64,000 bases of DNA from Rhodococcus koreensis. GTDB lineage: Bacteria; Actinomycetota; Actinomycetes; Mycobacteriales; Mycobacteriaceae. The notes beneath the pieces are model-generated. The model was not told the DNA's origin and searched no databases. It was given only the letters and a program-made list of their open reading frames with translations. Within the stretch, counting starts at the first letter, position 1. The number at the start of each line of letters is the position of its first letter. Positions 1,550 through 26,713 of the stretch are shown here, in pieces. The stretch is taken from NCBI RefSeq assembly GCF_900105905.1, contig NZ_FNSV01000005.1:930001-994000 (forward strand). The letters are read 5' to 3'. Position numbers and translations under genes: made by a program.

Positions 1550-1578
1550 GTGTTCCTCGTTCCGTGAAACCAGTGCAG

Positions 1579-2694: not shown

Positions 2695-2713
2695 CTCGTC
2701 GTCTCGATTCGGT

Positions 2714-6141: not shown

Positions 6142-6185
6142 GCGTGGCTCCGAAGATTGTTCCGAAATGCATCGACCTGCCCGGA

Positions 6186-6199
6186 CAGAATGCATCCTG
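6186..6199. promoter_or_regulatory. Predicted GntR operator between acyl-CoA synthetase and GntR genes
   Basis: CAGAATGCATCCTG is a near-perfect palindrome lying 20 nt before the GntR start and 45 nt before the divergent synthetase start. The same 14-mer on the other strand recurs at 9574-9587, and a 12/14 match at 11105-11118. Position and symmetry suggest an autoregulatory FCD-GntR binding site. Confidence 0.7.
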
Positions 6200-6218
6200 C
6201 GGTCTGTAGCATCGGGCT

Positions 6219-6911: not shown

Positions 6912-6945
6912 CGCTGCTACGACCGGGGTCCGGCCAGTCGCTCGT

Positions 6946-8598: not shown

Positions 8599-9557
8599 CG
8601 GGAGACCTCTTTCGCGGTAGTGGTGAGGAAGTGAGCTATTTCGTCTGCAACGAATTCGAGCGCGATCCTGCTGGCGGGGAGAGCCCCGAAAAGGGTGAAG
8701 AAGCCGTGCATCTGGTCCTCGAAATGTCGAGATACCACCGGCACACCTGCCCTCCTCAGTCGGTCGGCATACTCGATCGCCTCGTCGCGGAGCGGATCGT
8801 GTTCGGCGGTGACCACGATCGCGGGTGGAAGCTCGGCGAGATTCGGCTCATGCAGGGGGACGGCCTCGGTGTCGGACCGGGCCGATTGGGTTGGGTCGTA
8901 GTTATTCCAGAACCACATCAGGGTTTCGCGGGTGACGAGAAGTTGGTTCTCGCTCTTCAGGTACGAATCCCGGTCGAAGTCGGAATCGGTTGCAGGGTAG
9001 ACCAATATTTGAAGAGCTATGCGTGGGAATCCTGCGTTCCGGGCACGATGTGTGACGACGGCAGCGAGGGTCCCGCCGGCGCTGTCGCCACCCACTATCA
9101 GGGGCACAGACGATCCCGCGAACTGTTCGATGTGCTCGTGCACCCACAGTAGCGCCGCCCACGCATCGTTTATCGCGGTCGGGAAGCGGTGCTCGGGAGC
9201 AAGCCGGTAGTCGACGAGCGCGACAACACAACCGGTCGTATCCGCCAGGAAGCGGCCGAGAAGCTCCGACTGTTCAATTCCTCCGAGCACCCAGCCGCCG
9301 CCGTGGTAGTACACCACCACGGCGCGAACCACCCCGCGCGGAACCAGCATTCGCACACGCACGCCGCCGCCCGGCACCACGATCATGTGGTCGGATACCG
9401 ACGACATTTGCCGCCGATCAGCAGGCAAGGTGCCCTTTCCACGGGCCAGGCGGGTCGGAAACGCACGTGCCTCGTCGAGGGTCATGCAGTGCAGTGGCTT
9501 CTCTCCGAGAGCTGCGATTGTCGCGAGCAACTTCTGCGTCGCCGTATCGAGTGCCAT
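8595..9557 (-). CDS. Alpha/beta hydrolase (HSL-type esterase)
   Basis: Esterase of 320 aa in the hormone-sensitive-lipase group. The oxyanion motif YYHGGGWVLGG, nucleophile Ser in GGDSAGGTLA, Asp in EHDPLRDEA and His in QMHGFF are all visible. ATG 9557 was picked for its strong AGGAGGTGAG ribosome site; a longer frame to 9743 would cross the operator. Paired with the Baeyer-Villiger monooxygenase (4 nt overlap), it most likely cleaves the ester product to alcohol and acid. A predicted GntR operator lies 17 nt upstream. Confidence 0.9.
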   Translation of the reverse strand: MALDTATQKLLATIAALGEKPLHCMTLDEARAFPTRLARGKGTLPADRRQMSSVSDHMIVVPGGGVRVRMLVPRGVVRAVVVYYHGGGWVLGGIEQSELLGRFLADTTGCVVALVDYRLAPEHRFPTAINDAWAALLWVHEHIEQFAGSSVPLIVGGDSAGGTLAAVVTHRARNAGFPRIALQILVYPATDSDFDRDSYLKSENQLLVTRETLMWFWNNYDPTQSARSDTEAVPLHEPNLAELPPAIVVTAEHDPLRDEAIEYADRLRRAGVPVVSRHFEDQMHGFFTLFGALPASRIALEFVADEIAHFLTTTAKEVSR

Positions 9558-9573
9558 CTCACCTCCTATAATG

Positions 9574-9587
9574 CAGGATGCATTCTG
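9574..9587. promoter_or_regulatory. Predicted GntR operator before the hydrolase-monooxygenase operon
   Basis: CAGGATGCATTCTG is the exact reverse complement of the site at 6186-6199. The flanking bases also match, giving a shared 16-mer GCAGGATGCATTCTGT. It sits immediately upstream of the ribosome site of the hydrolase gene, consistent with repression. Confidence 0.7.
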
Positions 9588-9601
9588 TGCTTGGAAATTG
9601 A

Positions 9602-9631
9602 GGCCCTGCCGACAAATGCCGCAACAGGGCC
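9602..9631 (-). terminator. Hairpin after the MFS transporter gene
   Basis: GGCCCTG pairs with CAGGGCC across a 16-nt loop, 9 nt past the transporter stop. There is no T-run, as usual in high-GC actinobacteria. Confidence 0.4.
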
Positions 9632-9639
9632 GATGCCGC

Positions 9640-10998
9640 TCACTCAGCTGCGTACTCGACCCGACCCGTCGGCCGAAACTCGAGATCCTTCGTCTCCGGA
9701 CCCCACAGCGCCCCGATGACAATGAGAGCCCCTCCGACGACAATCAGCGGAATCGCCGTCACCGTTTCGGGCAGGAATGTAGCCAACCCCAACAGATAGA
9801 AGCTGTAAAAACTCGGAATCAACAGGGAAAGACTGTATCCCATCGCGAAACCCGACGAGCGAACACTGGTACCGAACCGCTCGTTGACATACACGGTCGC
9901 AACACCGAACACCGAACTGATCACAACCTGAACCACGATGGAAGCAGCGATGATACCGAGCGTTCCTTCGATCAAGTCCGACATGAAGATGTAGTACGCC
10001 GCACTTCCGACAACGGCGATAACGAACCCCATCACGGTGAGAAACTTGCGTCGACCGACCCGCTGGCTCGTCACGCCTGCCGCCACGAATCCTGCGTACA
10101 ACACAACATTCGTGACCAGCAGCGCCCACGTCACCGTCGTCGCATCGATCTTGTGAAAGTTCTTCAGCTTGTCGGGCACCACGGAGGCCACCATCGACGA
10201 CGTCAGCCACAGTCCTGTCATCAGCACGAACACCTGCCAAAACGAGCGCTTCTCCGACCCGAACATCACCTGCCGTAGCGGTGACTTAGCCTTGGCGGAC
10301 TCTTCCCAAAGGTCCGACTCGGGAAGATGCTTCCTCCGGTACACCAGGAACGCGAATCCGCATGCAGCACCGAACAAGAACGCGATTCTCCAGCCCCACT
10401 GCACGTACGGAGAGTCCAGCCCACCAGCAGGTGCAACCCTCAGCATAACGAGTGTGACGAGCGAAATGATCACGAACGCTGCGCAATAGGCACCGGCCAA
10501 AATCCCTCCCACCAGGCCTCGCTTCTCGCGGTCGCAATATTCGTAGGCAAGCGGAACGGCCGCGGTGTACTCACCACCGAGAAAAATGCCATCGATGAAC
10601 CGGAGCCCCACCAACAGAACGATCGACCACATGCCCACTGTCTGGTACCCCGGCAGAAAAGCGATCAGGAGAGTGCACACCGAGAAGCCCGCGACCGAGA
10701 TCATCGTGATCCGACGACGTCCGATTCGGTCGGCCATCGAACCGAAAAGGAGTGCGCCGATCGGGCGGCCGAGGAGTGTGGCCGCGAACGTCACGAAGTA
10801 GATCGTCGACTTCATCGCCGGTGACAAATCGGCCGGCTGAAAGTAGATGATCGCGGGAACCAGTGCGATCACCGGGAGGTATATGTCGATGAAGTCGACC
10901 AGTAACCCCTGATAGGCGCCGACGATTGCCTTCCGGCGCTTCGAAGGATCGACCCTGCGCCCGACGTGCCCGGACTCTGAGTTGGTTATCGCTGTCAT
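9640..10998 (-). CDS. MFS metabolite:H+ symporter (MHS family)
   Basis: Inner-membrane transporter of 452 aa with about 12 membrane segments. The family signature RPIGALLFGSMADRIGRRR lies in the loop between helices 2 and 3, and RFIDGIFLGGEYTAA between helices 4 and 5. This group carries organic acids such as shikimate, ketoglutarate or aromatic acids. ATG 10998 was chosen for AAGGAG 8 nt upstream. A weaker copy of the GntR palindrome lies 107 bp upstream, so it probably imports the growth substrate or an acid intermediate of the neighbouring pathway. Confidence 0.9.
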   Translation of the reverse strand: MTAITNSESGHVGRRVDPSKRRKAIVGAYQGLLVDFIDIYLPVIALVPAIIYFQPADLSPAMKSTIYFVTFAATLLGRPIGALLFGSMADRIGRRRITMISVAGFSVCTLLIAFLPGYQTVGMWSIVLLVGLRFIDGIFLGGEYTAAVPLAYEYCDREKRGLVGGILAGAYCAAFVIISLVTLVMLRVAPAGGLDSPYVQWGWRIAFLFGAACGFAFLVYRRKHLPESDLWEESAKAKSPLRQVMFGSEKRSFWQVFVLMTGLWLTSSMVASVVPDKLKNFHKIDATTVTWALLVTNVVLYAGFVAAGVTSQRVGRRKFLTVMGFVIAVVGSAAYYIFMSDLIEGTLGIIAASIVVQVVISSVFGVATVYVNERFGTSVRSSGFAMGYSLSLLIPSFYSFYLLGLATFLPETVTAIPLIVVGGALIVIGALWGPETKDLEFRPTGRVEYAAE

Positions 10999-11016
10999 GC
11001 AAAGCTCCTTGTGCAT

Positions 11017-11348
11017 AACCCATGACGTGGGGTTTTGAAGTGCCAGCGGACTGAGACAGCCCGGACAGATAGAAGCGTAAGTGCCTCAAGTCACCCAGTC
11101 AATGCTAAATGCATTCTGCATCGACCGGCGGTAGGAATAGACGACGGCCACTCGAGGACGAACAGCTCCGACGGACGATGGATCGCTTCGTCAGGCCCGC
11201 AGGTGTCGATGAACGGCCGGCAAACGGTCACGCTGTGCGCCAGGAATTTGGTGCGCACCCCGCTGTCCCTACTCTCGCAGTCCGCGCTTGTGCATCGTGT
11301 ACACCGGTGAGCGGTTCACTTCTCGGATCCCATTCATGAGGACGACTG
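11017..11348. other. Intergenic region with third GntR-type site
   Basis: This 332-bp gap separates the MFS gene from the DUF3263-like gene. It holds CTAAATGCATTCTG at 11105-11118, a 12/14 match to the GntR palindrome found at 6186 and 9574. I see no gene or clear promoter for the rightward gene. Confidence 0.5.
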
Positions 11349-11816
11349 ATGACCACCATCCCTCCCCTACATCAATCCAACGGCGATAATGGGCGTCCAA
11401 CAGACAGAGGTCCCGCGCTCGCGACTCAGATTCGCGCGTACAAGCAAGCGCGCCGCCGAAGGCTCCAGGCCGTCACAGCTGAGAGAATTCGTCGTCGTGT
11501 CCCGCGGGAAACCGAGGAAATTGTCGGCTTCGCCCAGATGTGGATCCCATACGGTGGGGCACCAAACGCCGAGATATTTCGGCATTTCGGCATGTCGGCT
11601 TCCCAATTCTCTGTCCGACTCTGGAAGGCAGTCTCGGACATGAAGTGCGCCGCGCAATCCGTGCGGAGGCTAGCCGAGGTCTACCCTCGCCCACGTACAG
11701 GATTTTCGTCGAGGAAGCTCGCAAGAGCGAGAGGATCTGCGGGCAATGCAGATGCCTGGAACGCTGCGCACCAATCAGCGAACAACCCCCAGTCGTATCG
11801 ATGGCCCGAACCCTGA
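11349..11816 (+). CDS. DUF3263-like small protein
   Basis: A 155-aa soluble, basic protein. The middle part (about residues 55-108: ETEEIVGFAQMWIPYGGAPN, then AEIFRHFGMSASQFSVRLWK) has the pattern of DUF3263: an acidic start, an aromatic patch, a Gly-Ala turn and a helix-turn-helix-like FGMS-xx-F-xx-RL segment. The residues before it are basic (YKQARRRRLQ). Such proteins are found in actinobacterial chromosomes, plasmids and phages, with a presumed DNA-binding role. It sits at the border of the linear-replicon module and may belong to it. The product is hypothetical. Confidence 0.55.
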   Translation: MTTIPPLHQSNGDNGRPTDRGPALATQIRAYKQARRRRLQAVTAERIRRRVPRETEEIVGFAQMWIPYGGAPNAEIFRHFGMSASQFSVRLWKAVSDMKCAAQSVRRLAEVYPRPRTGFSSRKLARARGSAGNADAWNAAHQSANNPQSYRWPEP

Positions 11817-12297
11817 TCCTTATCGCCGAACAGGGCGGAAACATTCTGCCCGCCTGTGAATTCCGTCTGGCCGTTGGTCACTGCTCAAGGTTAGGCAATC
11901 CGCGGCCGCCAATCATGCCTCGGAGGGTCTGTGTCGCCATGAAGACTACCCTCGGGCAAAAGCTGGTTCACTTACTTGCGCAACACCAGGCGTGACCCCA
12001 GCCCGCAAAGTGCATATGGATCACGACAAATGCGAACTATCGAGTAGACGCTCTGCAGCAGCGCCGGCCCTCAACGACTGACCCCCGACCCTGCTGACCA
12101 CCTCATCCGAATAGCCCGCGAGGGCTGCGCGTCGCCTATCGCAGCGTGAATCGCTGAACCGGACAGCGGCGCCGCACTGATATTGCCGTTCGCGCGTATT
12201 GCGCGGAACACAGGAAACGCTAGCCGCAATAGCAGCGCCTTCCGTAACCTGACCTGCGGAAACGACTTCTCCGCTGGCGGTTGGGTTCGTCCTGTGA
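11817..12297. other. Gap with no recognised gene
   Basis: These 481 bp lie between two convergent genes. Reading frames are short and lack a ribosome site or recognisable domain. I see no RNA gene or clear hairpin terminator. Confidence 0.5.
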
Positions 12298-13095: not shown

Positions 13096-14945
13096 CAGAG
13101 CGCCCCCTCCCCATCCTCGAAGGCGAACTCGTCGTCGGTGTTCTCGTCGTCGGCGAAGACCGCCCGGATTACCAGATTCACCTCGTGCACATCCTGAGCC
13201 GACGCCAACGCGGACCGGAGTGGGCCGGTGAGGGGGGTGTCCTTCTCCACCGACATCTTCCCCAACGCCGCACTCGGATCGGCGATGTCCTCCCCGTCGG
13301 CGAGGAGATACACCCAGGAGTCGGTGACGGTGCGGATCGGCCAACGATTGTGCTCGCGGCCGATCCGCATCGCCACCCGCCGGCCCCGCCACCGGCAGTG
13401 CGCGATGATCGCCGCCCGCCACAAAGGTTGGTGGTGATGGGCCATCCGGGTCGCGGTCCACATGTCCGGGTTCACCATCCGCCCGATATATCCCTTGTAG
13501 CAGGACCCGAGGAATCGTTTCGTCGCCGCATCCTCGGTGTCCACCGCGGCCTTGCGCGCCTCGCGGAGGATCTTCGCCCACTTGTCCAACACCCGGCCCT
13601 GCTGCGGGTACACCCAGGCCTCGGTGATGTCCAGATCGTCGAGGTCGGCGCCGATCCCCCCATCCGTCACCGGTGCGCACAACCCGTCCAGGCTCACGGA
13701 GGTGACCCACGTCTGCACCGGCTGATCCGCCAGCATATGCGGGTGCGGCAACGGCAGTTTCTCGGGCAGCGACAACGTTTGCCCCGCGGGGAGGGTGATC
13801 CGCCACAGCCCGAACGGGGCACCCTTGTCCCCCACCGCCGCACCGGCCGCCGCCCCGCCGGTCAAATGGGCAGGCTGCCCGTACCCGAATTCCAGCATCC
13901 CGGCCGACGCCAGGTACGCGGCGCGTTGGTCGATCGACACCAACCGGCTCGTCCCCTCGAGGTCCTGTTCGTCGGGGACCTGGGTCCAACCCACGGCGGG
14001 TTCGAGGTCCCCGCGCGGGGCGCCGTCCAGCGGCGGCACCGGGCCCGCCGTCGCCACCACCAGGCCCTTGCCCGACCGGGTGCGTTCACGCTTGATCTTG
14101 TCGACGATCGCGGCGCCGGTCCGCGCCGGTGTCGGCCCCGGTAGCACGCCGAGGTGTTTCGCGGACCACGCCAACCGGCGACCCAACTCCCGCGCGGCCG
14201 GCAGGTCGTCGTCGGGGAGATACGTTCCCGCCGTCGGTGAACCGAGGATCCCCATCTCCCCGACCCGGTTGTTCCAACCGAAGTCCTTGTTCCAGTACGT
14301 CCACACGTACGGCTCGAGCACCACATCGACCATCGAGGTGAACTTGCCGATGCTGCGGGACAGGTGCACCACATGCCCCGGATCGCCGCGCAATTCCCAC
14401 CCCGCGCTCAGCATCGGCGTCAACGTGGCCTGCAGGACCGCGGTCAGGTCGGCGGCGGCGCGGGTGCGCAGCGCCTCCATGTCGTCGAAGTCGTCCTCGC
14501 TGCCCGGATCGATCACCCACCCCAAGGATTCACACGCGCCCTGGCCCACGATCCACACCTGCGGAGGAGCACCCAACGGCGTCAAAGCGGCCCACCGGAT
14601 CAACTTGTCCAGCTTCTCCACCGAATCGACGGGACCGGTCAACTCCCGCCCCGACGGCGTGTACGTCCCGTCGACGGTCACGATCACAGCGTGCTCATCC
14701 GCCTCCGCACCCACCGGCAGCGACTCCCACACCGGCCGGCTCGAGGTTGTTAGCTCGGGCGCCGGCGCAGCCGGCGATTCCGCTGGTTCCGCTGGTTCCG
14801 CTGGTTCCGTGGCAGCGGTAGGTGTCGACGGTTCCGCCACAGCGGTCTCCTCCGCGTCGATCTCGTCGGTATCGTCGGTGGCAGGATCCGGGGCGGAGGG
14901 CTGGTGCAGGTCGAACAGGGCAATCTGCTCCCACGGACGGCTCAT
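13095..14945 (-). CDS. Tap-like telomere-associated protein
   Basis: A 616-aa protein. The first 95 residues are acidic and Ala/Pro/Glu-rich, with short AEP repeats. The rest looks folded: residues about 100-330 hold VIVTVDGTYTPSGRELTG and a WTYWNKDFGW patch, and the C-terminal half starts at SRLVSIDQRAAYLASAGMLE and ends with AIIAHCRWRGRRVAMRIGRE and IRTVTDSWVYLLADGEDI. The D-x-x-A-A-Y-L-A start and the R-x-N/R...TD..VY end match my memory of Streptomyces Tap, which recruits Tpg to telomere overhangs. ATG 14945 has GGGAG about 10 nt upstream; it lies 4 nt after the RHH gene and overlaps the Tpg-like gene by 1 nt. Confidence 0.65.
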   Translation of the reverse strand: MSRPWEQIALFDLHQPSAPDPATDDTDEIDAEETAVAEPSTPTAATEPAEPAEPAESPAAPAPELTTSSRPVWESLPVGAEADEHAVIVTVDGTYTPSGRELTGPVDSVEKLDKLIRWAALTPLGAPPQVWIVGQGACESLGWVIDPGSEDDFDDMEALRTRAAADLTAVLQATLTPMLSAGWELRGDPGHVVHLSRSIGKFTSMVDVVLEPYVWTYWNKDFGWNNRVGEMGILGSPTAGTYLPDDDLPAARELGRRLAWSAKHLGVLPGPTPARTGAAIVDKIKRERTRSGKGLVVATAGPVPPLDGAPRGDLEPAVGWTQVPDEQDLEGTSRLVSIDQRAAYLASAGMLEFGYGQPAHLTGGAAAGAAVGDKGAPFGLWRITLPAGQTLSLPEKLPLPHPHMLADQPVQTWVTSVSLDGLCAPVTDGGIGADLDDLDITEAWVYPQQGRVLDKWAKILREARKAAVDTEDAATKRFLGSCYKGYIGRMVNPDMWTATRMAHHHQPLWRAAIIAHCRWRGRRVAMRIGREHNRWPIRTVTDSWVYLLADGEDIADPSAALGKMSVEKDTPLTGPLRSALASAQDVHEVNLVIRAVFADDENTDDEFAFEDGEGAL

Positions 14946-16341: not shown

Positions 16342-16588
16342 TCATCGCGTGACTCCTCGTGGGGGGTATGCGGTTAGCTCCGCGGGTGTCACCTCCTGGT
16401 CAGGTTCGGTCGTGGTGTTGTCGCCACGAGAACGGGCGAGCACGTCGAGACCGAGATAGCGGAGCCCCTCGATCCACTCATCGTGTTGCTCGGCGAGGAC
16501 GGCTCCGACGAGGCGGATCAACGCGGTGCGGCCGGGGAAGGTCCCGACCACATCGGTTCTCCGGCGGATTTCCTTATTGAGACGCTCC
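16342..16588 (-). pseudogene. IS256-family transposase, C-terminal fragment
   Basis: The frame reads ERLNKEIRRRTDVVG, then FPGRTALIRLVGAVLAEQHD and RRYLGLDVLAR-like text, the well-known C-terminal part of IS256/MutA transposases, including the Glu of the DDE triad in ERLNKE. It begins exactly where the missing part should join: the N-terminal part of the same kind of transposase ends with NNPR at 25844. The two fragments flank element A, so one transposase gene was split by that insertion. Confidence 0.85.
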
Positions 16589-16589
16589 T

Positions 16590-16605
16590 TTAACCGGCCT
16601 TCGCG
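16590..16605 (+). repeat. Element A left terminal inverted repeat
   Basis: TTAACCGGCCTTCGCG matches 13 of 16 positions with the minus-strand reading of 25823-25838. The two probably serve as recombinase core-binding arms. Confidence 0.6.
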
Positions 16606-16635
16606 TGTGGGTCAACCTCAGGTTCGCGATTTGGG

Positions 16636-17117
16636 TCAGCGGTCGAGCCGGTGAAGGTGATCGGTCAGGGCGTCTGCAACGCGGTGGTGGCGAGCAGCTT
16701 CGTCGGGCCAGCCGCGGTCGCAGGCATCGGCTTCGAGTGCCTGGACGTCGGTGCGTTGCGCCTCGAGCGTGTCGCGGAATTCGGGTCCGGTGACGAAGTT
16801 GTCGCAGGTCTCGCAGATGTTGGCATAGGGACAGGCTCCGGCCGCCTCGTGCCGAGAACAGTAGCCATGGGCGAGGCGGGTTTTGAGCATCTCGCTGCCG
16901 AGCCAGCTGACGGTGTCGGGAACGATCGGTTTGCCGACCGGGGTGAGGGTGAACCGCCGCCGCATCTTGCCCATGGCCTGGTCGTAGGCGTCGCGCAGCG
17001 TCGGCGATGCGAGGGTGGCGTAGCGGAGAGTCATCTGAGGAGTGACGTGCCCGAGCAGCGCCATCAACGCCTGCAGGCTCATTCCGGCATTGGCGAGTTC
17101 GGTCGCCCAGGTGTGCC
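16636..17117 (-). pseudogene. Element A second tyrosine recombinase, C-terminal part (split)
   Basis: This piece begins at RHTWATELANAGMSLQALMA, the last catalytic box, continues with LLGHVTPQMTLRYA carrying the His and the Tyr nucleophile, and ends with a Cys-rich tail (GYCSRHEAAGACPYANICET) that may bind zinc. The part encoding residues before RHT is at 23205-24670. Element B lies between them; deletion of 17118-23208 fuses the two into a 1,944-nt frame of 648 codons. Stop at 16636. Confidence 0.85.
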
Positions 17118-17261
17118 TTGTGTCCGCAGAGGCCGTGTGCGGTCGGGTTCGTGTTGCGTTTGAAATGGAGGGTCTCCGGCGCGGAGTTCGCGACGCTCGT
17201 GGCCGCCTGTGTAGCGATAAGACGTTAGTGTTTGTGACTGACGTCACCGCTCGATCTCGCG

Positions 17262-17720
17262 TCAGCATGGCCCGATGATTTTCTGGCGTGTCGTCGGCAG
17301 GCGGGTGACGGTGGTGTTCGGGTCTGCGGCGGCGCGGAGGCGGAGGATTTCTTCGTGCTGTGCGGCCAGCCTCGCCAGTGCCTGGCCGCGGAAGTCGGTG
17401 AGCTCCTCGATGGTCGAATGGGCCTGGTTCAGGCGCTCTTTGAGCTTGTCTATCTCTGCTTTCAGTCGTGCGATTCGCGCGGTCTTCGGGTCGGGGGTGT
17501 CGCCGTTGCTCTGTAGCTGCTCAAGCCGGTGTTCGAACTCGGCGCGTAGGTGCGCGTAGGGCCTGCTGCCGTAGAAGGCGGTGCGATCGACGCCGGCCTC
17601 CGCGGCGAGGGTCTTGATATCGCAGCCTCCGCCGGGTGGGATCTCGCCGCGGAGCAGTCGGTCGATGGCGGCGCGAATGCGGTTCTCGTTCTGGGTGCGT
17701 TGGTTGGCACTGATTCTCAT
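17262..17720 (-). CDS. Element B small coiled-coil protein (TnpC/DUF6262-like)
   Basis: A 152-aa protein. Residues 1-60 form a helix-turn-helix-like head (AAIDRLLRGEIPPGGGCDIK, then TLAAEAGVDRTAFYGSRPYA); residues 65-140 are heptad-rich and predicted coiled coil (ARIARLKAEIDKLKERLNQA). This matches Tn554 TnpC, an accessory factor that steers the orientation and frequency of transposition. ATG 17720 overlaps the recombinase stop (ATGA). The longer upstream frame is a shadow. Confidence 0.75.
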   Translation of the reverse strand: MRISANQRTQNENRIRAAIDRLLRGEIPPGGGCDIKTLAAEAGVDRTAFYGSRPYAHLRAEFEHRLEQLQSNGDTPDPKTARIARLKAEIDKLKERLNQAHSTIEELTDFRGQALARLAAQHEEILRLRAAADPNTTVTRLPTTRQKIIGPC

Positions 17721-19912
17721 GGCAGGTCCCTGTTTGTGGTGGTTGTGGCCGCGTCTATATCGGCGATGACCCGGACTGCGCGGTCGTGGTCGGCTTGCAG
17801 GCGGGTGCGCTCGGTGGTGCGGGTTTTGCCGAGTTGGCCGAGGAAGATCTTGGTGCGTTCGGCGTGTTCGGCCCAGACGGAGCGATGGACATCGTGGTGG
17901 GTGGCCTGCGGGCAACGCGCCGAGTCACACATGCCGATCATCGGCCGCGTCGCGGTCGGGGTGCCGGCCAGTTTGAGGCAGAGGGCGCGGGACGGGTCGA
18001 CGAACCAGCAGTAGTTCGCCGGGCCCAGGTGCAGGACCTTGGCTCGTTTGGACAGCAGGTTGAGGATGTCGCGATCGTTGCGCTGCACCTTCGGTGCCGC
18101 AGCCGATTCCGCGTTCACGTCGGCGTCGACGGTGGCGAAGTACTCGGTGAGGTTTCGTGCGCCGGGGCCGGAGGGCAGGATGCCGTTGCGGTAGTTGTGG
18201 AACTCGGCCAGTATCAGCTGAAGGTTGCGGTCGGCTTCATGCTTGTTGACCTCGGCCAGTAACTCGGCTTGAGCGCCACCCGGCCGGGCCGCATAGCCTT
18301 CGGTTGTTGCGGTTGCGATATGCTTGAGCTGCAGTTTTGCTGCGAGAACCCCGCCGGGGCGATAGGCCAATTCCAGCGCGATCGTTCTTCTGAGCATCCG
18401 CAGTGAGACCGGTCCCTCGGGAATTGGGGCCAGGCCCAGGCGTTCTCCTGCCGAAGAGTTGACCCAGTTGCGGAACCAGATGTAACGGACCCGGAAGCTG
18501 AACCGGGACAACAGAAGAGCATCATCGCGTGGATCGTCGTGCAGTTGTTCGATGAGTTCGACAGCTCGGTGGACCGGTTCGATGACGACCCATTCGTCGT
18601 CGGTGCCGCCGAGCGGCTGGCCTTTGACGATCTTGCTGGCGATGCGGTAGCGCATGAGCCCGGGTATGGGTTCCTCGATCGGGCGGCGGCAGCCAACACG
18701 TAGTTCCATCAACTCGCTGCTGCGCATCCCTGATGATGCCGAGAGCACGATGATCGCGGCTGTTCGGACGATCCCGACCACGGCGACGGCCTGCGATCGG
18801 TGCAGCGGCAGGCTCCAGGGCCGTGTCGCGCCGTCGGCGGTCGGCGCCTGTTCGGCGTCGCGAGCGAATACCTTCTCGACCCCGACCGCGGCGACTGCGT
18901 TGGTGAGCGGTCCGCGCAGTCGCGGCAACCAACGGGAGTCGATATTGCGGCGTCCGGCCTGCCTGGCGAGAATCCCGGTGGCGACGGGCAGCAGTAGGTC
19001 GTCGGCTGACCATCCGGCGGCCAGCCGTTTGGTGATCTCATGGTCTTCGTGTCGGGGCAGCGGCGTCCCTGTCCTGGTGTAGTCGGCCAACACGGTCACG
19101 ATGTCGTCGACCGCAGAGGTGGTGGTTTGACGCCGCTGTCCGATCCTGACCGAATGGACGCGGTCGTGTTCGCGGACCTGCTGGTTCAATGCGACCGCGT
19201 GCGGGCCGAGGACCTGCATCAGGTGCAGCGCCGCCGCGAGCATCGGCTGCAGGATCTCGTCGGGAACGGCGGGCGTGGTGTTTCCGTCACGGCCGGAACG
19301 CATTTCGGCGACGGCGGAAGCCGATGCGCCGCCCCAGGGGCGAAGATCGGCGCGGACGCGGTCGGCGGTGAACAGGTCTCGGTGGTTGACCAGGTCGACG
19401 ATGATCTGCGCCGCAGCGCGTCGAACCGCGGGGCTCTGTTCACCGACAACATTGCCGTCCTCGTCGAGGATGTAGCGCCGGAATGCCAGGTAGGCCTCGC
19501 AGGTGTGGGTGTCGATTTCGGCCAGCGTGGTGACGTGTCGCCGGTCGAGCCAGCGGAACAGTCGCGTCAGCTCGCCCAGCCGTCCGATGCAGCTGCGCAG
19601 ATGCAGCGGTGTGCGGTATGCCCTGGGCAATTCGGCGACGGCGGGATGCCGCGGGGCGAGGGCGGCGATGATCAGCTCCTTGGCGACCATGCGCCATCGC
19701 GGGTCGCCGATCACGGCGAAGTCGAAGCGGCGGTTCGCCAACGGGATGTTGACTGCCAACCCGACGACCTCGGTGAAGTCCCATAAGTCGTCGTCGAACA
19801 GGGGGCGGCGAACGTCGTCGGGCAGTGTCAGACCCGCCTGCAGACAGACATCGGCGCCGGTGAAGACTGATGTCCGGTGTTCGCGGGCGCTGTTGGTGGC
19901 GAAGGTCGTCAT
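17717..19912 (-). CDS. Element B large tyrosine recombinase (TnpB-like)
   Basis: A 731-aa recombinase with an N-terminal SAM-like DNA-binding part and a C-terminal catalytic domain. Box I Arg is in SASSGMRSSELMELRVG. Box II is variant, SLRMLRRTIALELA, and the last box is LQLKHIATATTEGYAAR with the Tyr nucleophile. A late Cys-rich segment (CWFVDPSRALCLK, MCDSARCPQ) is typical of Tn554 TnpB relatives. ATG 19912 overlaps the middle recombinase stop by 4 nt. It cuts and joins DNA at the element ends together with its two partners. Confidence 0.85.
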   Translation of the reverse strand: MTTFATNSAREHRTSVFTGADVCLQAGLTLPDDVRRPLFDDDLWDFTEVVGLAVNIPLANRRFDFAVIGDPRWRMVAKELIIAALAPRHPAVAELPRAYRTPLHLRSCIGRLGELTRLFRWLDRRHVTTLAEIDTHTCEAYLAFRRYILDEDGNVVGEQSPAVRRAAAQIIVDLVNHRDLFTADRVRADLRPWGGASASAVAEMRSGRDGNTTPAVPDEILQPMLAAALHLMQVLGPHAVALNQQVREHDRVHSVRIGQRRQTTTSAVDDIVTVLADYTRTGTPLPRHEDHEITKRLAAGWSADDLLLPVATGILARQAGRRNIDSRWLPRLRGPLTNAVAAVGVEKVFARDAEQAPTADGATRPWSLPLHRSQAVAVVGIVRTAAIIVLSASSGMRSSELMELRVGCRRPIEEPIPGLMRYRIASKIVKGQPLGGTDDEWVVIEPVHRAVELIEQLHDDPRDDALLLSRFSFRVRYIWFRNWVNSSAGERLGLAPIPEGPVSLRMLRRTIALELAYRPGGVLAAKLQLKHIATATTEGYAARPGGAQAELLAEVNKHEADRNLQLILAEFHNYRNGILPSGPGARNLTEYFATVDADVNAESAAAPKVQRNDRDILNLLSKRAKVLHLGPANYCWFVDPSRALCLKLAGTPTATRPMIGMCDSARCPQATHHDVHRSVWAEHAERTKIFLGQLGKTRTTERTRLQADHDRAVRVIADIDAATTTTNRDLP

Positions 19913-21630
19913 GCGGTGCGTTCCTCTGGGCGAAGGGGGATTTCGTCGTCGGTGTCGGTGACCCGGGAAGCCGCGGCCGTGAGTTCGGCGGGGTCGAACC
20001 GGCCCAGGATCTGATCGATCCGAGTCGCGTAAGGCCCGAACACCGCCATGAACTGCGCGGCGGGCAGCTGCTGCCATTGGCGGGAGAAGAACGCCTTGAG
20101 CCGCAGCAGGTTCACCGCGTGCCGCGGCGCGAACACCGCCAGCGGGCAGAGCAGGCAGACCCACGGCCTGGCCGGACACGGCTTGCCGACCGGACCGTGC
20201 AGGCCGGCCAGCTGATCACCGCATGCTGCGGTGAACACATCGCGCGCGCCGCCGACCAAATCGGCGATCGCGTGGTCGTCGAGATTCATCGCCGCCATCA
20301 GTTGCGGGTAGCCGTCGGCCAGCGCGGCGGCGTCCTCCTCGGCGATCACGGTGGGCGGATGCGCGCGGCGCAACAGATCGTGCTGGGCATCCTCGATGAC
20401 CGCCTCGACCGCGTGCCGTTGGCCCGGGGTCGTCACCGACAGGTAGTGGTCGCCTTCGACAGCGGGCGTGTGATTGGGGTCGATCGTGGCGCGTGCGTTG
20501 CCTGTCCAGGTCTTCCTCTCGCGCATCGCATGGTGCGTGGTGCGGATGCGTGCTCGATGGATCTTCAACGGCCGACCGTCGGCCCCGAGCACGCCGTGGC
20601 GGTTCACCCATCGCTGGATGCTGACCCGATTGATCTCGCGGATCAGGACGGGTTTGCCCACGTAACTCAGGCCCAACCACAGCCGGTCGCGGTCGCTTGG
20701 TGCGACCAGGCTGCGCAGCAGCGACGAGTGCGTCAGCCACTGCTCGAGCAGACGCACCGCCGGACGCGGCAGGTTCAGGGTCTCCGCCGCGGTGCGGCGT
20801 TTGACGTAGGACAGCAGAACGGTCGAGTCCCCGGCCCATTCGATGTCGTCGACCCCCAGGTCGGCGATGCCGTCGGGAACGATGCCGGAGTAGACGCCGA
20901 ACAGCAGCCGGTAGGCGATGACGGCGTCCAGGTGCGGGAACACCGCCCTCAGGGCGTCATAGAACGCTGGTGGTCGCCGATTGTGGAACACGCTGTGCGT
21001 CACGCCGATCGTGTGGGCGAACACGGGAGTGCTGACCGGGCCGAGCCGTTCCAGCAGCCAGCAGAAGTTCTCCCATGTCCATCCGTGCTCGGCGGGATGA
21101 CGGCCCTGCCCGATCGCGGCCAGTGCGCGGCGGTGCGTCGCATACGACTCCTCGACGACCGTGCGGCATGCGGTGATCAGACCCTGCCATTCGACTTCGG
21201 GATAGGGCGGCAGTGGTCGACGGTTGGGCTGGATATTGAAGTGTCGGCCCGCCGCCAATTCCAGCACCCCGTCGCCGAGGCCGCCGCCGGATCGGGCATA
21301 TCCCTCCACCATGGCGCGGGTGTATGCCTCCAACCTTCTGGGGCCCGCCATCCAGAACTGCGCAAGCTGTCCGCGGCGCAGCCCACTCGCGCCGCCGGTG
21401 AAACCCTGCTCGGCGAGCGCGCGAACCATTGCTCTCAGTGCACCCGCGTAGGCATCGACCGTTCCGGCCGAGTTCGCGCTGCCGTGCGGATGAATCAGCT
21501 CCAGGAGCCCGACTGCCAGATCACGCGCCAACCGAGGGTTCGGCAACCCCGCCAGGTCGAACTCCGCCCGGCTGCCGTCGCTGAACACACAGCTCAAGCC
21601 AAGCGGTTCGTCGGTCACTCTCGTCGGCAT
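19909..21630 (-). CDS. Element B middle tyrosine recombinase-like protein, box I Arg not evident
   Basis: A 573-aa protein. The catalytic-domain outline can be followed: FGVYSGIVPDGIADLGVDDI stands where box I normally reads TGLRxxE, so the Arg appears replaced by Val. RARIRTTHHAMRER is box II, and EGDHYLSVTTPGQRH has a candidate Tyr. A Cys-rich tail (KPCPARPWVCLLCPLAVFAP) ends the fold. It may be catalytically inactive and act as a structural partner. Start is ATG 21630, overlapping the previous stop as TGATG; GTG 21633 is equally possible. Confidence 0.75.
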   Translation of the reverse strand: MPTRVTDEPLGLSCVFSDGSRAEFDLAGLPNPRLARDLAVGLLELIHPHGSANSAGTVDAYAGALRAMVRALAEQGFTGGASGLRRGQLAQFWMAGPRRLEAYTRAMVEGYARSGGGLGDGVLELAAGRHFNIQPNRRPLPPYPEVEWQGLITACRTVVEESYATHRRALAAIGQGRHPAEHGWTWENFCWLLERLGPVSTPVFAHTIGVTHSVFHNRRPPAFYDALRAVFPHLDAVIAYRLLFGVYSGIVPDGIADLGVDDIEWAGDSTVLLSYVKRRTAAETLNLPRPAVRLLEQWLTHSSLLRSLVAPSDRDRLWLGLSYVGKPVLIREINRVSIQRWVNRHGVLGADGRPLKIHRARIRTTHHAMRERKTWTGNARATIDPNHTPAVEGDHYLSVTTPGQRHAVEAVIEDAQHDLLRRAHPPTVIAEEDAAALADGYPQLMAAMNLDDHAIADLVGGARDVFTAACGDQLAGLHGPVGKPCPARPWVCLLCPLAVFAPRHAVNLLRLKAFFSRQWQQLPAAQFMAVFGPYATRIDQILGRFDPAELTAAASRVTDTDDEIPLRPEERTA

Positions 21631-23099
21631 CACAGATCCCCGTCGGTGTCATGGTCGAATTCGGCGTCGGCTTCCCACTGGGCTGCGGTAGCATCGATGA
21701 GTCCGGCTGCCGCGCCCTCGGTTTCGTAGGCCTGCCGGTAAATCCGTGTGGTATCAAGACGCTTCAGGTATTTCTCGGTGGTCAACACGGTCGAATGCCC
21801 GAGCAAATCTCGCAGCACCAGCAGCGGATCGGCCTTGGTCAGGTAAAAGATCAGCGCCGCGTCGGCATCGGTGTGGCGCACCAGCTTCGCTGCCTGCCGG
21901 TAGTAGCCGGTCACCAGATATTCCAAAGTCTGCATCGAGAAGCAGTGACGAAGCCGGTGCGGGTGAACGTGCGGGAACCGCGGCTCGAACCGGGCCCGGA
22001 TCCGGTCGGCGGTGCGCTCGAACACCGTCGCCCACGCCGTGAACGGTCCACCGTCGGCCTTGACCGCCAGCAGGCACGACCCGCCCTCCGGTGCCACGAG
22101 CCGCCGCCGCTCCGGCGGGGTCAATGACTCCCACGACCGGCGGATGCCGTTGATCCGGCCGCCGCGGGCGTCCGGTTCGCTCACGTGCATCGGCTCGCCC
22201 CACCGTCGTGGTGGCCGCCAGCTCGATTCGACGGTGACGGCTGCGCGATCGAGCTGCAGGTAGTCGTGCAGCCCGGCCAGGGCGTCGTAGGAGATCCAGG
22301 TGGTGCGGAACTTGCGGCCCTTGGTGATTCCCGCCGGCACCGGAAATGGGATCGGGATCGCCGTCCGCGCCGGCGGCAGTGCCGGGATCTCCCACGGCAG
22401 CAAATGCGTGAACTCGCCCAACCGCAACCCGGTCGCCAGCGCGAGATCACCGATCGCGGCGTTGCGGGTCATCTCCCGGCCCGCGAACCCGGTGTCGCGG
22501 TTGCCGTCCGGCGCCAGCCCCCGCAACCCTTTCCGGAACAGGTCGGTGAAGTCCGGCTCCAGATACTTGATGGTCACATGCGGTTTCGGGGTGCGGCGCA
22601 CCGCCAGATTCACCCGCACCTCCCGGCCGGTCCCGGCGAAGACCGCCCGCGCCGACCGGTAGGTGAACGGTTCGGCAGACGCGAACCCTTCCTCCATCGC
22701 CCACCGGTAGAACAGCGACAGGATGCTCATGTGCTGGCCCCATGTGGTCGCCGCGAACCGCGACCGCGCCGGCCCCGCTGCGCGGTGCTCCGCATAGCGA
22801 CTCAGCCCAGCTTTCAACCGTTCCCGGGTATCGAACAACCCCACGCCGTGTTCGGCGAGGAACTCCGCCCATTCCTTGACCGCCCGCGCGTAGTTCTCCC
22901 ACGAACTCGGCGCCGGAGCCCCGCTGGCCGGAAGCTCCCGCAGCCACCGGTTCACCACGGACGCCTGCCGCGGCGCGGCCGGGCCGTCCTCGAACAACAG
23001 ATCGTCATCGATGAGGAACGCCATCCCCTCCGGGATCACGGGACGATGCTCAAGGTCCCAGGACCGCCAGTCCAGCGACGAGAAGTAGCTCAAGATCAT
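21630..23099 (-). CDS. Element B first tyrosine recombinase (TnpA-like)
   Basis: A 489-aa site-specific recombinase with an intact active site: Arg in ATGLRLGEFTHLL, HPHRLRHCFSMQTLEYL box II, LLGHSTVLTTEKYLKR with the Tyr nucleophile. A 70-residue N-terminal segment precedes the SAM-like core-binding domain (PSSWENYARAVKEWAEFLAE). ATG 23099 was chosen; the frame extends 15 codons further. It is first in the four-gene operon, each gene overlapping the next. Confidence 0.88.
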   Translation of the reverse strand: MILSYFSSLDWRSWDLEHRPVIPEGMAFLIDDDLLFEDGPAAPRQASVVNRWLRELPASGAPAPSSWENYARAVKEWAEFLAEHGVGLFDTRERLKAGLSRYAEHRAAGPARSRFAATTWGQHMSILSLFYRWAMEEGFASAEPFTYRSARAVFAGTGREVRVNLAVRRTPKPHVTIKYLEPDFTDLFRKGLRGLAPDGNRDTGFAGREMTRNAAIGDLALATGLRLGEFTHLLPWEIPALPPARTAIPIPFPVPAGITKGRKFRTTWISYDALAGLHDYLQLDRAAVTVESSWRPPRRWGEPMHVSEPDARGGRINGIRRSWESLTPPERRRLVAPEGGSCLLAVKADGGPFTAWATVFERTADRIRARFEPRFPHVHPHRLRHCFSMQTLEYLVTGYYRQAAKLVRHTDADAALIFYLTKADPLLVLRDLLGHSTVLTTEKYLKRLDTTRIYRQAYETEGAAAGLIDATAAQWEADAEFDHDTDGDL

Positions 23100-23204
23100 G
23101 GGCGCTGACAGTAGAAACACCACACGGCTCGGCGCAACAACCAAACCCCCAGGTCGCCCTCACCTTCGGGTCTAATGCAACACGGGAACTAAGCAGAGAC
23201 AATA

Positions 23205-24670
23205 TGCCGCAGCTGATGCGGTGTCACCACCAACGGTGCGCCGCCGGCGCCGCGCAGCCCGGACTGCTCGACGGCGGCGAGCAGCCCATTGCGCAGCCGG
23301 GTCTGGCCGAGGCGGCGGCCGTGCGCGACGAACAGGAAATCGGTCAAAGCTCCGGTCCGCGGATGCGGCAGCGGCCGGCAGACGCCGCGCCCGCCGCTCC
23401 ACTCGTCCAACGCCGCGACCGTGGCCGCCGACAGCGGCACCATGCGCTCGGTCGCGAGTTTGCCCAGCGGCACCTTCAGCCAGGTCCCGGCCGGGCCGTA
23501 GTCGACGACGCTGCCGAGCTCGAGGTCGAGCAGTTCCCCGACCCGCAACCCCGCACCGCGGAGCACCGTCAACCCGATGCGAGCGAACGGATCCTCCAAC
23601 CCGGCAACAGCGTTCATCACCACGCCGTCGACGTCGGGTGCCAGTGCGCGGGGCAAGGGTTGGTCGAGTTTGGGGACGTCGGCGGCGAAGACCAGCCGGC
23701 GCGGCGGTGCCTGCTCCCAGCCCCATGCGGTGATGTCGTCGAGCAGGTTGCGCAGGCTCAGCACCGTCGATTGGATCACCGCCATCGAGATGGTGCGTCC
23801 GGCGCCGGCGGCGGCGCGTTGCCCGCGCCAGGTGCGGGTGCGGTTCCAGACGAGGAAGCCCTCGATGTGACTGCGGTCGAGACCGTCGAGGGAGGTGACC
23901 TCGGGGTGGTGTGTGGTGAGATAGTCTGCGAATGGCAGCAGGTCGTTGATCAGTGATTCGACGGACTTCGGGCGAAGCACCGCGGCCCGGACGGTGACAT
24001 AGCGCAATAGCGTCTCGCGGATCGCGTCGGCCATCGGAACGTCGGCGAACCGTTGGCCATAGCTGCGGGCCCAGACGCGGCGCCGTGGTGGTGTGTCGAC
24101 GATGCGGGCCTCGAACAGCACCTGCCGCAGACCCGCGATCCGATTGCGGTAGGCCCGGCGCGACGACGGTGGAATAGCTTGTGTTGCAGCCAATGCGGCA
24201 TCGAAATCGTCGACGGTGTCGTTGGTGATGCCGCTGACGGATCCGCCGTGCCAGGCGAGCAGCACCGCCAGGCACTCGCCGAGGACGGTCTCCACCCATG
24301 ACGGTGTCCAGCCCAAGGCCAGTCCGGCGGTCCGGGCCGCGGCGAACCCGTCCGGGTCGCGCGCCTCGATCGCACTGCCGAGTCCGGTGAGGTTCTTGAC
24401 GGCGGCGAACTCGAGGTCCAGTCGCAGCTCGTCTCGCCCGATGACGTGACACAGCAGCGGCCAAGCCCCGGCACTGCGGAGTTCGGTGAGCCGGTCCGAT
24501 GCAGGCCGGGCCATCCATTCCTGCAGATCCGGGTGCGCGGCCAGAAACGTGCTCGCGATGCGGGTGCGGCCGCGGACGGCCCTTCCGCCCAGCCCGAGGG
24601 TGGCGACGTGGTCGAGATAGCCGGCCAGCACCGTGTCCGGGGCCACCATGGTCGTCGATGCGGTGGTCAT
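23205..24670 (-). pseudogene. Element A second tyrosine recombinase, N-terminal part (split)
   Basis: This part starts at ATG 24670, overlapping the stop of the first recombinase gene (ATGA), and runs through the core-binding domain to box I (LRGAGLRVGELLDLELG) and the beginning of box II (TPHQLRH), then hits element B DNA and stops after four foreign residues (IVSA). It lacks the LGH and Tyr boxes, so the product is inactive. The C-terminal half is intact at 16636-17117. Confidence 0.88.
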
Positions 24671-25728
24671 CGCCGTTCCCCGGCGAGACTGGCCCGGGCG
24701 GCGCCGTATTCGGCGGCGAGCTGCTCGATCGACAGGTGCACGTACTCGGCGGTGGTCTCCGGGGACGCGTGCCCCATCAACTCCCGCAGTACCATCAGAT
24801 CGATTCCCGCGGAGGCGAGTTCGGTGCCGTAGGTGTGTCGCAGCCGGTGTGGACGCACCCGACCCGCGCCGGACAGCTCTCGGTGCCGCCGAAACAACGA
24901 CCGCAGCCCGGCCTCGGTCACCGGCGCCCCCAGCGTGGGGCCGCGCAGCACCACAAAACATTCCGGTGTCGCCAACCCCGGTGGCCGCTCGAGGCGCAGA
25001 TAGGCCGACAGTTCGGTGAAGAACACCGCATCGACCGGCACCACCCGCTCCTTCGAACCCTTGCCGAGCACCCGCAGCCGACGTCGACCGAAGTCGACCT
25101 CCGCCAGCCGCAGCGACCGCACCTCGGCGCTGCGCAGACCGCCGAGCAGCATCGCCCACACCATCGCCCGGTCCCGATGGGTGCGCAGCGACGAGACGAA
25201 CACGTCCACCGCGTCGGCGTCGAGGGACTCGGGCAGCAACCGCGGCTGGCGCACCAGCCGGCCTCCGGCCCGGGGCCGGCCGGGCCCGAGATGCCCGAGC
25301 AAACCCCGCCCCGACGGACGTAACCCCTGCCCGCGCCGGGGTGAGGGCACCGGATTGTCGGCGCGCACCCCGGTCATCACCAGGTACTCGAACAATGCCC
25401 GCACCGCCGCGACCCGCCGGTTGATCGTCGACGCCGCCGTCGTCCGCTGCCGGCCGTTCCTCGGTGCTGCACCGGGTCGGGGATCACGGCGCACGCCCTG
25501 CCAGTCGATCCACTCGAACACGGTCACCGGCGTCACCGCCGCCAATCCGACATCGCGGTCGATCAGGAACCGCGCCAGATTCAGCATATCGAACGCATAC
25601 GCCCGCACCGTCGCCACGCTGAACGCCCGCCCGGCCAGATGCTTGAGGAACGCGTTCGCCGCCGCGCAACCCTCCCACTCGCCGTCGACCACATAACCGT
25701 CGCCCGCCGTCTGCACCCGAACGGCCAT
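24667..25728 (-). CDS. Element A first tyrosine recombinase (TnpA-like), intact
   Basis: A 353-aa recombinase with the full catalytic set: Arg in LLGGLRSAEVRSLRL, RPHRLRHTYGTELASAGIDL, and LMGHASPETTAEYVHLS with the Tyr nucleophile. ATG 25728 is preceded by GAGAGGAG. With its split partner it formed the two-gene recombinase operon of element A. It could still act on the ends alone, but the partner is dead while element B is in place. Confidence 0.88.
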   Translation of the reverse strand: MAVRVQTAGDGYVVDGEWEGCAAANAFLKHLAGRAFSVATVRAYAFDMLNLARFLIDRDVGLAAVTPVTVFEWIDWQGVRRDPRPGAAPRNGRQRTTAASTINRRVAAVRALFEYLVMTGVRADNPVPSPRRGQGLRPSGRGLLGHLGPGRPRAGGRLVRQPRLLPESLDADAVDVFVSSLRTHRDRAMVWAMLLGGLRSAEVRSLRLAEVDFGRRRLRVLGKGSKERVVPVDAVFFTELSAYLRLERPPGLATPECFVVLRGPTLGAPVTEAGLRSLFRRHRELSGAGRVRPHRLRHTYGTELASAGIDLMVLRELMGHASPETTAEYVHLSIEQLAAEYGAARASLAGERR

Positions 25729-25820
25729 CGTCTGCTCCTCTCGTGAATCGAGCCGCCACCGTCAGCATGCGCCCCATCCGGGCGGCGGCCCCGGACCTCA
25801 CGCCGCGGACAGAATCGTGT

Positions 25821-25838
25821 CGCCCGAGAGCCGGTTAA
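25821..25838 (-). repeat. Element A right terminal inverted repeat
   Basis: Read on the minus strand as TTAACCGGCTCTCGGGCG. The first 16 positions match the left repeat (16590-16605) at 13 places; TTAACCGGC is identical. Confidence 0.6.
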
Positions 25839-25843
25839 CCGAT

Positions 25844-26520
25844 CGCGGATTGTTGCTCCAGATCTGTTTCCAGATCTGCATGGGAAATGCGGTGAACGCC
25901 AACAGGTCCGATCGCGCGGCATCGAGGTGGTCGGCAACCTTCGGCAGCTTCTCGGCAGTGCGTTGATGATCCGATCATGTTGAGCATGAACGGAATCGGC
26001 GTCGAGTTGGTCGTAGACCGAGTGCAGCAGTGTCTTCACCCTCCCCCCGCAAGCGGGCGGTACCCCCACGGCCACGACGCCTTCTCCGGTCACCGCCATG
26101 AGGTTCGTCGAGCATGCGTTCGGCACCTCTGCCACGAGGCACCGGGCAGGGTCGCGCCGATCGCCGCCACCTGCCCGGCGTGGGCGTCGGAGGTCACCAA
26201 CCCGACCCCGGACAGGCCGCGTGCCACGAGCGGGCGGAAGAACGCCAGCCAGCCGGCACCGTCCTCGGACGAGGTCACATCCACACCGAGTATCTCCCGG
26301 TAGCCCTCGGCGTTGACGCCGACCGCGACCAGGGTGTGCATGTTGACCACCCGCCCGTTCTCGTGAACCTCGAGGGCGGGGGCGTCGGCGGCAACGAACA
26401 TGTATGGGCCGGCGTCGAGCGGCCGGCTACGAAACGCCTCGACTTGTGCATCGAGGCGCTGGGGACATGCGGAGGCGCGACGGGCGACACCCGGGTGATC
26501 ACGTCGAACGTATACGAGCT
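25844..26520 (-). pseudogene. IS256-family transposase, N-terminal/middle fragment with frameshifts
   Basis: Minus-strand frames read DAQVEAFRSRPLDAGPYMFV, then VNAEGYREILGVDVTSSEDG, WLAFFRPLVARGLSGVGLVT with SDAHAG, then after a frameshift near 26095 KTLLHSVYDQLDADSVHAQH, and after another near 25955 AEKLPKVADHLDAARSDLLA up to QIWSNNPR. These are consecutive IS256 transposase blocks with the first two catalytic Asp residues (VAADA, VTSDA). The 5' end is missing before about 26520. The frame then continues at 16588 across element A. Confidence 0.85.
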
Positions 26521-26713
26521 CAAACGTCGGCATCATCTACAGCCCAGTCCCACACGCTCTATGTCACTCCTCGAGCGAATTCCGAGATCCCGACCCGCGC
26601 CGCGCCCCGTCTCCGCCGAAGAACTACGGGAGCCTCGGACCTTGTGAGGGAGGAAGGCCGCCGACACTGCTGCAAAGACGCTAACCGTGATCATCCCGCT
26701 ACTCTTTCCGGGT

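Follow-up and report, generated by a model that had tools for sequence, protein, structure and literature searches.

Here we describe a nest of mobile elements in a 64,000-nucleotide stretch (the window) of the 10.3 Mb genome of Rhodococcus koreensis, taken from contig NZ_FNSV01000005.1, positions 930,001 to 994,000. In this window, the gene of an IS256-family transposase is interrupted by an element that we call A, and the second gene of A is in turn interrupted by an element that we call B. This three-level arrangement had been proposed in an initial annotation made from the letters alone; it is confirmed here, and the coordinates proposed at that time proved to be right to within a few bases. 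The parts of the nest, all of which are located on the minus strand, are the following (positions are those of the whole window):

25845..26536, minus strand, left remnant of the IS256-family transposase gene (Pfam Transposase_mut)
25839..25844, minus strand, element-borne 6-bp spacer GATCGG, adjoining the left end of A
25830..25838, minus strand, left terminal inverted repeat of A, TTAACCGGC
16590..25844, minus strand, element A including B, 9255 bp (3165 bp without B); its ends recur in relatives
24667..25728, minus strand, A tnpA, 353-aa tyrosine recombinase (Pfam Phage_integrase, 2.7e-26)
23203..24670, minus strand, N-terminal part of A tnpB, to ...TPHQLRH
about 17113..23202, minus strand, element B, 6090 bp, four genes (free copy at locus L011; relatives at L067 and L142)
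21630..23099, minus strand, B ginA-like tyrosine recombinase, ~489 aa (Pfam SAM-like match and a below-cut-off integrase match)
19909..21630, minus strand, B ginB-like gene, ~573 aa, conserved, without a family match
17717..19912, minus strand, B ginC-like gene, ~731 aa ("site-specific integrase" in five of six annotated relatives)
17262..17720, minus strand, B ginD-like small protein, ~152 aa
16636..17112, minus strand, C-terminal part of A tnpB, catalytic tail and Cys cluster
16590..16598, minus strand, right terminal inverted repeat of A, GCCGGTTAA
16584..16589, minus strand, the target's own 6-bp core AGGAGC, adjoining the right end of A
16342..16589, minus strand, right remnant of the same IS256-family transposase gene (profile positions 339-378)

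The outer gene is cut at position 338 of the 379 positions of the Pfam Transposase_mut profile, the left piece ending at 337 and the right piece starting at 339. Both pieces match Transposase_mut, and the gene is thereby assigned to the IS256 family; its score against the NCBIfam IS256 model, 120.5 of 150 bits, is below the cut-off, as is expected of a fragment. The initial annotation had read these pieces as one transposase gene split by the element. The cut by A stands, but the gene is, apart from the insertion, additionally truncated and frame-broken: the open reading frame (ORF) at 26090-26536 covers profile positions 138-260 only, and the stretch 25846-25974 covers positions 299-337 in another frame. 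The window's IS256 transposase is thus already decayed, with the first ~137 positions lacking in ORF 26090-26536 and a break of frame. No empty copy of this particular IS256 host was found in its genome; relatives on Rhodococcus plasmids are ~82-91% identical over parts of the left half.

The gene content and the ends of A support its classification as a Tn554-related transposon having two tyrosine recombinases, encoded by tnpA and tnpB, and no TnpC. The class is characterised by adjacent short and long tyrosine recombinases of ~350 aa and >600 aa; TnpA, which also has a XerC-type match below the cut-off, has 353 aa, and an intact TnpB homologue has 648 aa. A tnpC gene is not present, A ending 46 bp past the tnpB stop codon. 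This does not exclude the class, since members without TnpC are listed by Van Houdt et al. (2012; PMC3414803). A fixed target, the absence of a target duplication, imperfect terminal inverted repeats and a 6-bp spacer were also found, the results on duplication and spacer being exact only for one element that has a near-identical empty site. The "second tyrosine recombinase gene" that had been reported as split by a 6.09 kb element is A tnpB, cut by B, and five intact TnpB homologues (648 aa in the first row) read through the B site, carrying HQLRHTWATELANAG uninterrupted across the insertion point. A without B is also seen: uninterrupted relatives of A are ~3.15 kb, and most of those of which both ends were found measure 3102-3278 bp; Rhodococcus sp. 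HM1, for example, has two copies of an uninterrupted A-type element. Based on these uninterrupted relatives of ~3.1-3.3 kb with two genes, we rejected the possibilities that A is a recombinase in trio (RIT) element or the remnant of an integrative and conjugative element or prophage.

The nucleotide-precise empty site belongs to the IS256 that hosts A on another contig of the same genome, C8 (locus L009). Rhodococcus sp. USK10 (L157) contains an uninterrupted IS256, to which the IS halves flanking A in L009 are 99.6% and 99.7% identical. Compared with this empty site, A plus a 6-bp spacer was gained and zero target bases were lost. Furthermore, an intact copy annotated as IS1164 matches the insertion sequence (IS) interrupted in L050 with 96.0% identity in the left half and 94.1% in the right half, and the core AGGAGC stands uninterrupted in the IS256-type genes of L158 and L159. 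IS1164 and the IS256 family are to be seen as the host of A, and not as its relatives. Several draft contigs of ~3.15 kb (L075, L076, L081, L084, L113 and L120) consist of a bare A-type element, the tips of which coincide with the contig ends to within a few bases; the record titles of L084 and L120 give ~210x coverage, which suggests collapsed multicopy elements.

The junctions of relatives in forward orientation follow one pattern: an element-borne 6 bp (GATCGG, TATCGG, TATCCG or similar, varying by clade) lies by the left end, and by the right end lie the six bases belonging to the target (e.g. AGGAGC, TCGAGC). In L048 and L126 the right end abuts the IS256 gene in reverse, and the target's 6 bp still adjoin the right end; these two loci are rearranged, with either both ends next to IS halves of the same side or only one end found. 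In L048, A is enclosed by two left IS halves that are inverted relative to each other. This locus also contains two IS256 copies, both cut at codon ~279 by inserts of ~2.17 kb (2506-4678 and 8341-10512), the first of which has a 712-aa ORF resembling what we take to be an ISAzo13-type transposase.

How general the target of A is was assessed by sampling the A family by its TnpA protein only. At E 1e-50, TnpA matched 17 of 351 genomes of the host's taxonomic family, and a search of genome contigs provided 68 loci. L140 (23% identity) was excluded before the count and L137 was dropped because of its short match; the 87 loci with a usable tnpA, minus 10 without a flank found by script and 8 duplicates, gave 69 distinct loci. 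With a readable flank, 68 of these 69 are read as being located in a DDE-transposase gene at a conserved motif. The initial junction reading placed 67 of them; L065, whose sister copies L064 and L066 are among the ten without a found flank, was read later, at an IS3 C-terminal motif, and the one unplaced locus, L059, adjoins a run of N. The most frequent target is IS256 at NNP|xER (33 loci), followed by IS256 at VHxxR|N (12), ISL3 at LLK|EALR or like (7), ISL3 at IKHIKR|ARG (6), IS3 at SMGRVG or like (4), IS66 at NNQAERDLRPxK (2), rve-type genes at HSRPxR (2) and the N-terminal region of IS3 (1); where a motif has no Pfam match, the IS family is the one to which it presumably belongs. Pfam scans of single flank halves returned Transposase_mut 30 times, ISL3 8 times, rve 4 times and IS66 twice among 59 left halves (L059 had been dropped beforehand), and Transposase_mut 31 times and ISL3 3 times among 47 right halves.

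The loci read afterwards agree with this: 17 of 17 are at a transposase motif (12 in IS256, with the left flank of L179 reversed, 4 in IS3 and 1 in an rve-type gene). They come from 2 viral contigs, 14 of 28 plasmid records and 1 further genome (L166); they are different records, some of which may descend from one insertion, and strictly unseen were 15 of the 17, the neighbouring transposase annotation of L155 and L156 having been seen beforehand. No TnpA relative was detected in phage records at E 1e-30. Near the plasmid-borne A-type elements, an annotated integrase (L174, 6916-7512) and an annotated IS3 transposase (L183, 7022-7966) may represent further nests.

The target class follows the TnpA tree. 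In a tree of 61 TnpA proteins the target labels need 8 changes, the minimum being 7, while shuffled labels need a mean of 29.9 and none of 200 shuffles was as low as 8. Near copies raise the clustering and 19 inner branches are open, and so it is the clustering that is shown here and not the exact history. In addition, repeated targeting is seen directly, as near-identical elements occupy different IS genes: the A parts of the window and L009 are 100% identical, L082 and L086 come from two species with a TnpA distance of ~0.003, and L109, L110 and L136, all from one genome, contain elements that are ~99% identical.

Element B consists of a row of ginA-like, ginB-like, ginC-like and small ginD-like genes, in the order and with the overlaps known from GInt elements. 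The initial annotation counted three recombinases in B. That of ginA is clear, and that of ginC is supported by the above-mentioned name "site-specific integrase", given by NCBI, and by conserved R, LRxLRR and LKH...GY residues; ginB remains weak, being a "hypothetical protein" in six of six annotated relatives and having no family match. Some other GInt features are lacking: window B has no cargo region of at least 2.5 kb, instead of imperfect direct repeats of 10-17 nt there is ~6 nt GGCAYA, seen by eye at both B junctions, and the 3' end is not AT-rich (17001-18000 has 65.6% GC, at 1-kb resolution). Because of the missing cargo region we call B GInt-like and not a GInt. B-type elements can nevertheless carry cargo, as L142 (83.5%; on a Streptomyces chartreusis plasmid) has a methyltransferase gene at 13900-14766, between ginD and the right end. 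Neither is B a RIT, whose three recombinases have ~315-410 aa, as compared with ~489, 573 and 731 aa in B.

The B-type elements with a ginA at least 83% identical (window, L011, L067 and L142) all begin directly after (H)xLRH codons, in four different tyrosine-recombinase genes; on the right, too, the flank is a recombinase, except in L067. When 396 genomes sampled across the phylum were searched with ginA at E 1e-60, a single further genome (G692) was gained, and no relatives of ginB or ginC were found in the scanned viral contigs. By eye, no recombinase was recognised at the distant B relatives L068, L141 and L144; L069-L072, L145 and L146 were left outside the target classification. In Mycobacterium sp. 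SM1, a third, Tn554-like element, C', cuts the tnpB of A-type elements belonging to two target classes. C' is located at 9104-12082 in L136 and at about 9080-12060 in both L090 and L091, its insertion point is an LxGH|VTP box (LMGH|VTP in L136), and its TnpA' is 44% identical to A TnpA over 248 residues. The same SM1 genome has an uninterrupted copy (L109), 99% identical to one of the C'-interrupted A-type elements.

A search of the R. koreensis genome with the nest gave matches at 11 places, of which three were short and weak. A tnpA is present on C3 (the window), C8, C7 and C1, with B sequence alongside in each case; the C1 copy is incomplete, since the contig ends cut through B. On C8, C7 and C1 the host IS256 differs from that of the window, and A is at the same motif. 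B without A is found elsewhere on C3 (L011), in a different recombinase gene and directly after the LRH codon group, and so a free copy of B exists in the same genome. The A parts of the window, C8 and C7 copies are identical wherever present, the C7 and C1 copies being without 482 bp around the tnpB start, while at its ginD end the B of the window shares 98.8% identity with that of C8 and 93.2% with that of C7, and the B of C7 (L010) is identical to the free B of L011 in all four segments. Identical A parts together with differing B parts indicate that B entered independently or was converted, and that the unit was not simply copied. The IS256[A[B]] units of C8 and C7 are flanked, at the ends of the shared sequence, by direct repeats of 9 bp and 8 bp, respectively, and these differing repeats imply that the whole unit probably also moved as an IS at least once. 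In addition, the start of C1 matches C7 and its end matches C8, both through the nest into the flank, and the listed contamination is 8.09; these overlaps reflect either recombination between replicons or an assembly artefact.

Taken together, these sequence comparisons make it very likely that the A clades target conserved motifs of transposases and that B targets the HxLRH codons of tyrosine recombinases, that is, that parasites are nested in parasites. As both A and B occupy sites repeatedly used by their relatives, the nest is not a chance stack. We propose that A would insert by site-specific tyrosine recombination at a fixed 6-bp core in the frame of IS256, at NNP|xER, by way of a circular intermediate; crossover would take place within a region of 6 bp, and the spacer there would be passed on as part of the element. 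We take NNP|xER to adjoin the codon of the catalytic glutamate. Related clades would use the same chemistry at other conserved transposase motifs, each clade using one site of one IS family, and the insertion site of B would be the HxLRH codons for the active site in genes of tyrosine recombinases, in this case the tnpB of A; given its position, B should disable A. The benefit may be that such a target is multicopy, dispensable for the host and plasmid-borne, and that its DNA stays constant because the residues it encodes can hardly change.

Several points weigh against this view. Mechanism has been deduced throughout from sequence, and transposition itself was not observed. The counts were made by script, and the class labels were assigned by eye, several from one flank and those of L087 and L111 from <30 nt. 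At 0.001, 15 of 59 left and 13 of 47 right peptides match none of the named DDE families, assuming that each member matched one family only; several of these peptides are short, or their frame was picked by a weak rule. The left flank of L100 has no Pfam match even at 0.01, and one left flank member matched the unrelated family RHA1_ro05818_N. The right flanks of L094 and L067 and the left flanks of L061, L089, L090 and L092 are not the expected gene over their full length; for L089 and L092 the left-end search was implausible and the assignment comes from the right flank. At L048, L074, L079, L126 and L179 at least one end faces the IS gene in reverse, and since some of them have both ends on same-side halves, such loci are rearranged. 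The sites T2, T5, T8 and those of L064-L066 are conserved motifs that are not beside the catalytic glutamate. As to B, profile searches with ginB and ginC against solved structures gave no match up to E = 1, and hhalign against TnpA gave probabilities <1%, even though ginC aligned where the catalytic boxes are expected; single-sequence structure prediction gave a mean predicted local distance difference test (pLDDT) score of 35 for ginB and 39 for ginC, and no usable fold. Finally, the distant B relatives L143 and L147 (the latter by annotation only) are located in a major facilitator superfamily (MFS) transporter gene. Being read in the same way and giving other genes, these two loci also led us to reject the idea that flank reading always yields transposases.

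It could be argued that A-type elements insert more widely and that only insertions in dispensable IS genes persist, transposase genes being in general dispensable for the host and multicopy. Survival selection alone, however, would scatter the positions within the IS, whereas the insertions are at the identical nucleotide across different IS genes and the clades keep different single sites, and we consider this explanation very improbable. Hardly any more credit can be given to one ancient insertion per IS type that was spread by transposition of the IS, and we rate it marginally lower: whole IS units do move, as is seen from the IS256[A[B]] common to L009 and L010, which is bounded by differing duplications of 9 bp and 8 bp, but near-identical elements occupy IS genes that are clearly distinct (window and L009; L082 and L086; L109, L110 and L136). 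With regard to the inner level, a joint move of A and B as a composite is an alternative to a later entry of B into A at each place, and the copies of this genome do have B inserted at one and the same base of A. The three compared A copies are identical wherever both are present, however, while their B parts differ (93-99% at the ginD end), and the identity over four segments between the L010 B and the free L011 B fits better with independent entry or gene conversion. A composite is thus unlikely, albeit less so than the two former explanations.

Tn554 itself has a unique site, radC. The targets of the A family, by contrast, are transposase-coding motifs, clade by clade. The actinobacterial Tn554-related class was defined by Van Houdt et al. 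(PMC3414803), whose elements, like A, have adjacent short and long tyrosine recombinases, in some cases without TnpC, and are multicopy in Actinobacteria; the passages of that paper dealing with them merely suggest similar attB sites and name no target. The pBD2 element of its Table 2, which A TnpA matches at 39%, is located in an IS3-type motif. According to a 2021 survey of tyrosine recombinases in Mol Syst Biol (PMC8138268), Tn554 TnpA-like recombinases form a subgroup. The strand-biased circularizing elements (SEs; Idola et al. 2023, PMC10214605) resemble A in having two recombinases, imperfect terminal repeats and a carried 6-bp spacer. They differ in gene set (intA, CDS2/tfp, intB, CDS4/srap) and hosts, and one SE-6945 insertion in insJ of IS3 is mentioned. 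A 6-bp crossover region is described there for SEs and GInts and stated for Tn554, and 6-nt staggered cuts were proposed for GInts (Bardaji et al. 2017, PMC5385486). The junctions of A would fit such a region, but the carried 6 bp stays at the left end of A, unlike in the SE model, where it goes to the right end. GInts have three recombinase-type genes, as B may have, and share with it a small fourth gene and a fixed target (PMC5385486). Window B, in contrast, is without cargo, its end is short and not AT-rich, and it targets a recombinase active site, where GInts use host genes, ssb among them; neither the word transposase nor the word Streptomyces is used in the main text of that paper. RIT elements likewise have a row of three genes, there encoding recombinases of 315-410 aa, compared with proteins of ~489-731 aa and a fourth gene in B, and Acidithiobacillus RITs were reported in the transposase gene of a Tn6049-related transposon (PMC3414803, PMC10214605). 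RUP, a pneumococcal miniature inverted-repeat transposable element (MITE), reportedly targets regions of IS elements and inactivates IS transposase genes (PMC2229807). It is non-autonomous, in contrast to A, and the parts of its description that concern targeting include neither a fixed motif nor a tyrosine recombinase. No paper stating the motif-targeting rule was found in the open-licence literature by word searches, which miss other wordings and covered neither ISfinder nor Tn-number registries.

The kinds of element dealt with here (Tn554-related, GInt-like) are already known, and the literature on them, as far as its statements on targets go, leaves the target rule open. That A's widespread group is found almost only at fixed conserved spots in the mobility genes of others suggests a specialised parasite of mobile DNA. 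Going one step further, we think it rather probable that Actinomycetota harbour tyrosine-recombinase transposons forming a guild of obligate predators of other mobile elements, the attachment site being the DNA of a conserved, often catalytic, motif. The attachment site of each predator clade would encode a motif of one recombinase or transposase family, and the prey could not easily mutate it, because it would lose its own mobility. Homing elements likewise occupy active-site codons. The predators would be preyed on in turn, B and C' breaking A-type tnpB at its own active-site boxes. Such a guild perhaps also exists in other phyla, as unverified titles of metagenome-assembled genomes name Chloroflexi, Armatimonadota and Dormiibacterota. 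If true, the A family would constitute natural and specific inactivators of insertion sequences, and the repeated nesting seen in actinobacterial plasmids would be explained in part. The family would then also supply a set of related recombinases whose targets differ and can be predicted, and with which one could study how tyrosine recombinases acquire new specificity.

Beside the nest, the minus strand of the window encodes at 503-11016 two zinc-type dehydrogenases, an aldehyde dehydrogenase, an AMP-binding enzyme of the acyl-CoA synthetase type, a flavin monooxygenase-like protein, an alpha/beta hydrolase and an MFS transporter, a cluster that looks like one for ketone or alkane catabolism.

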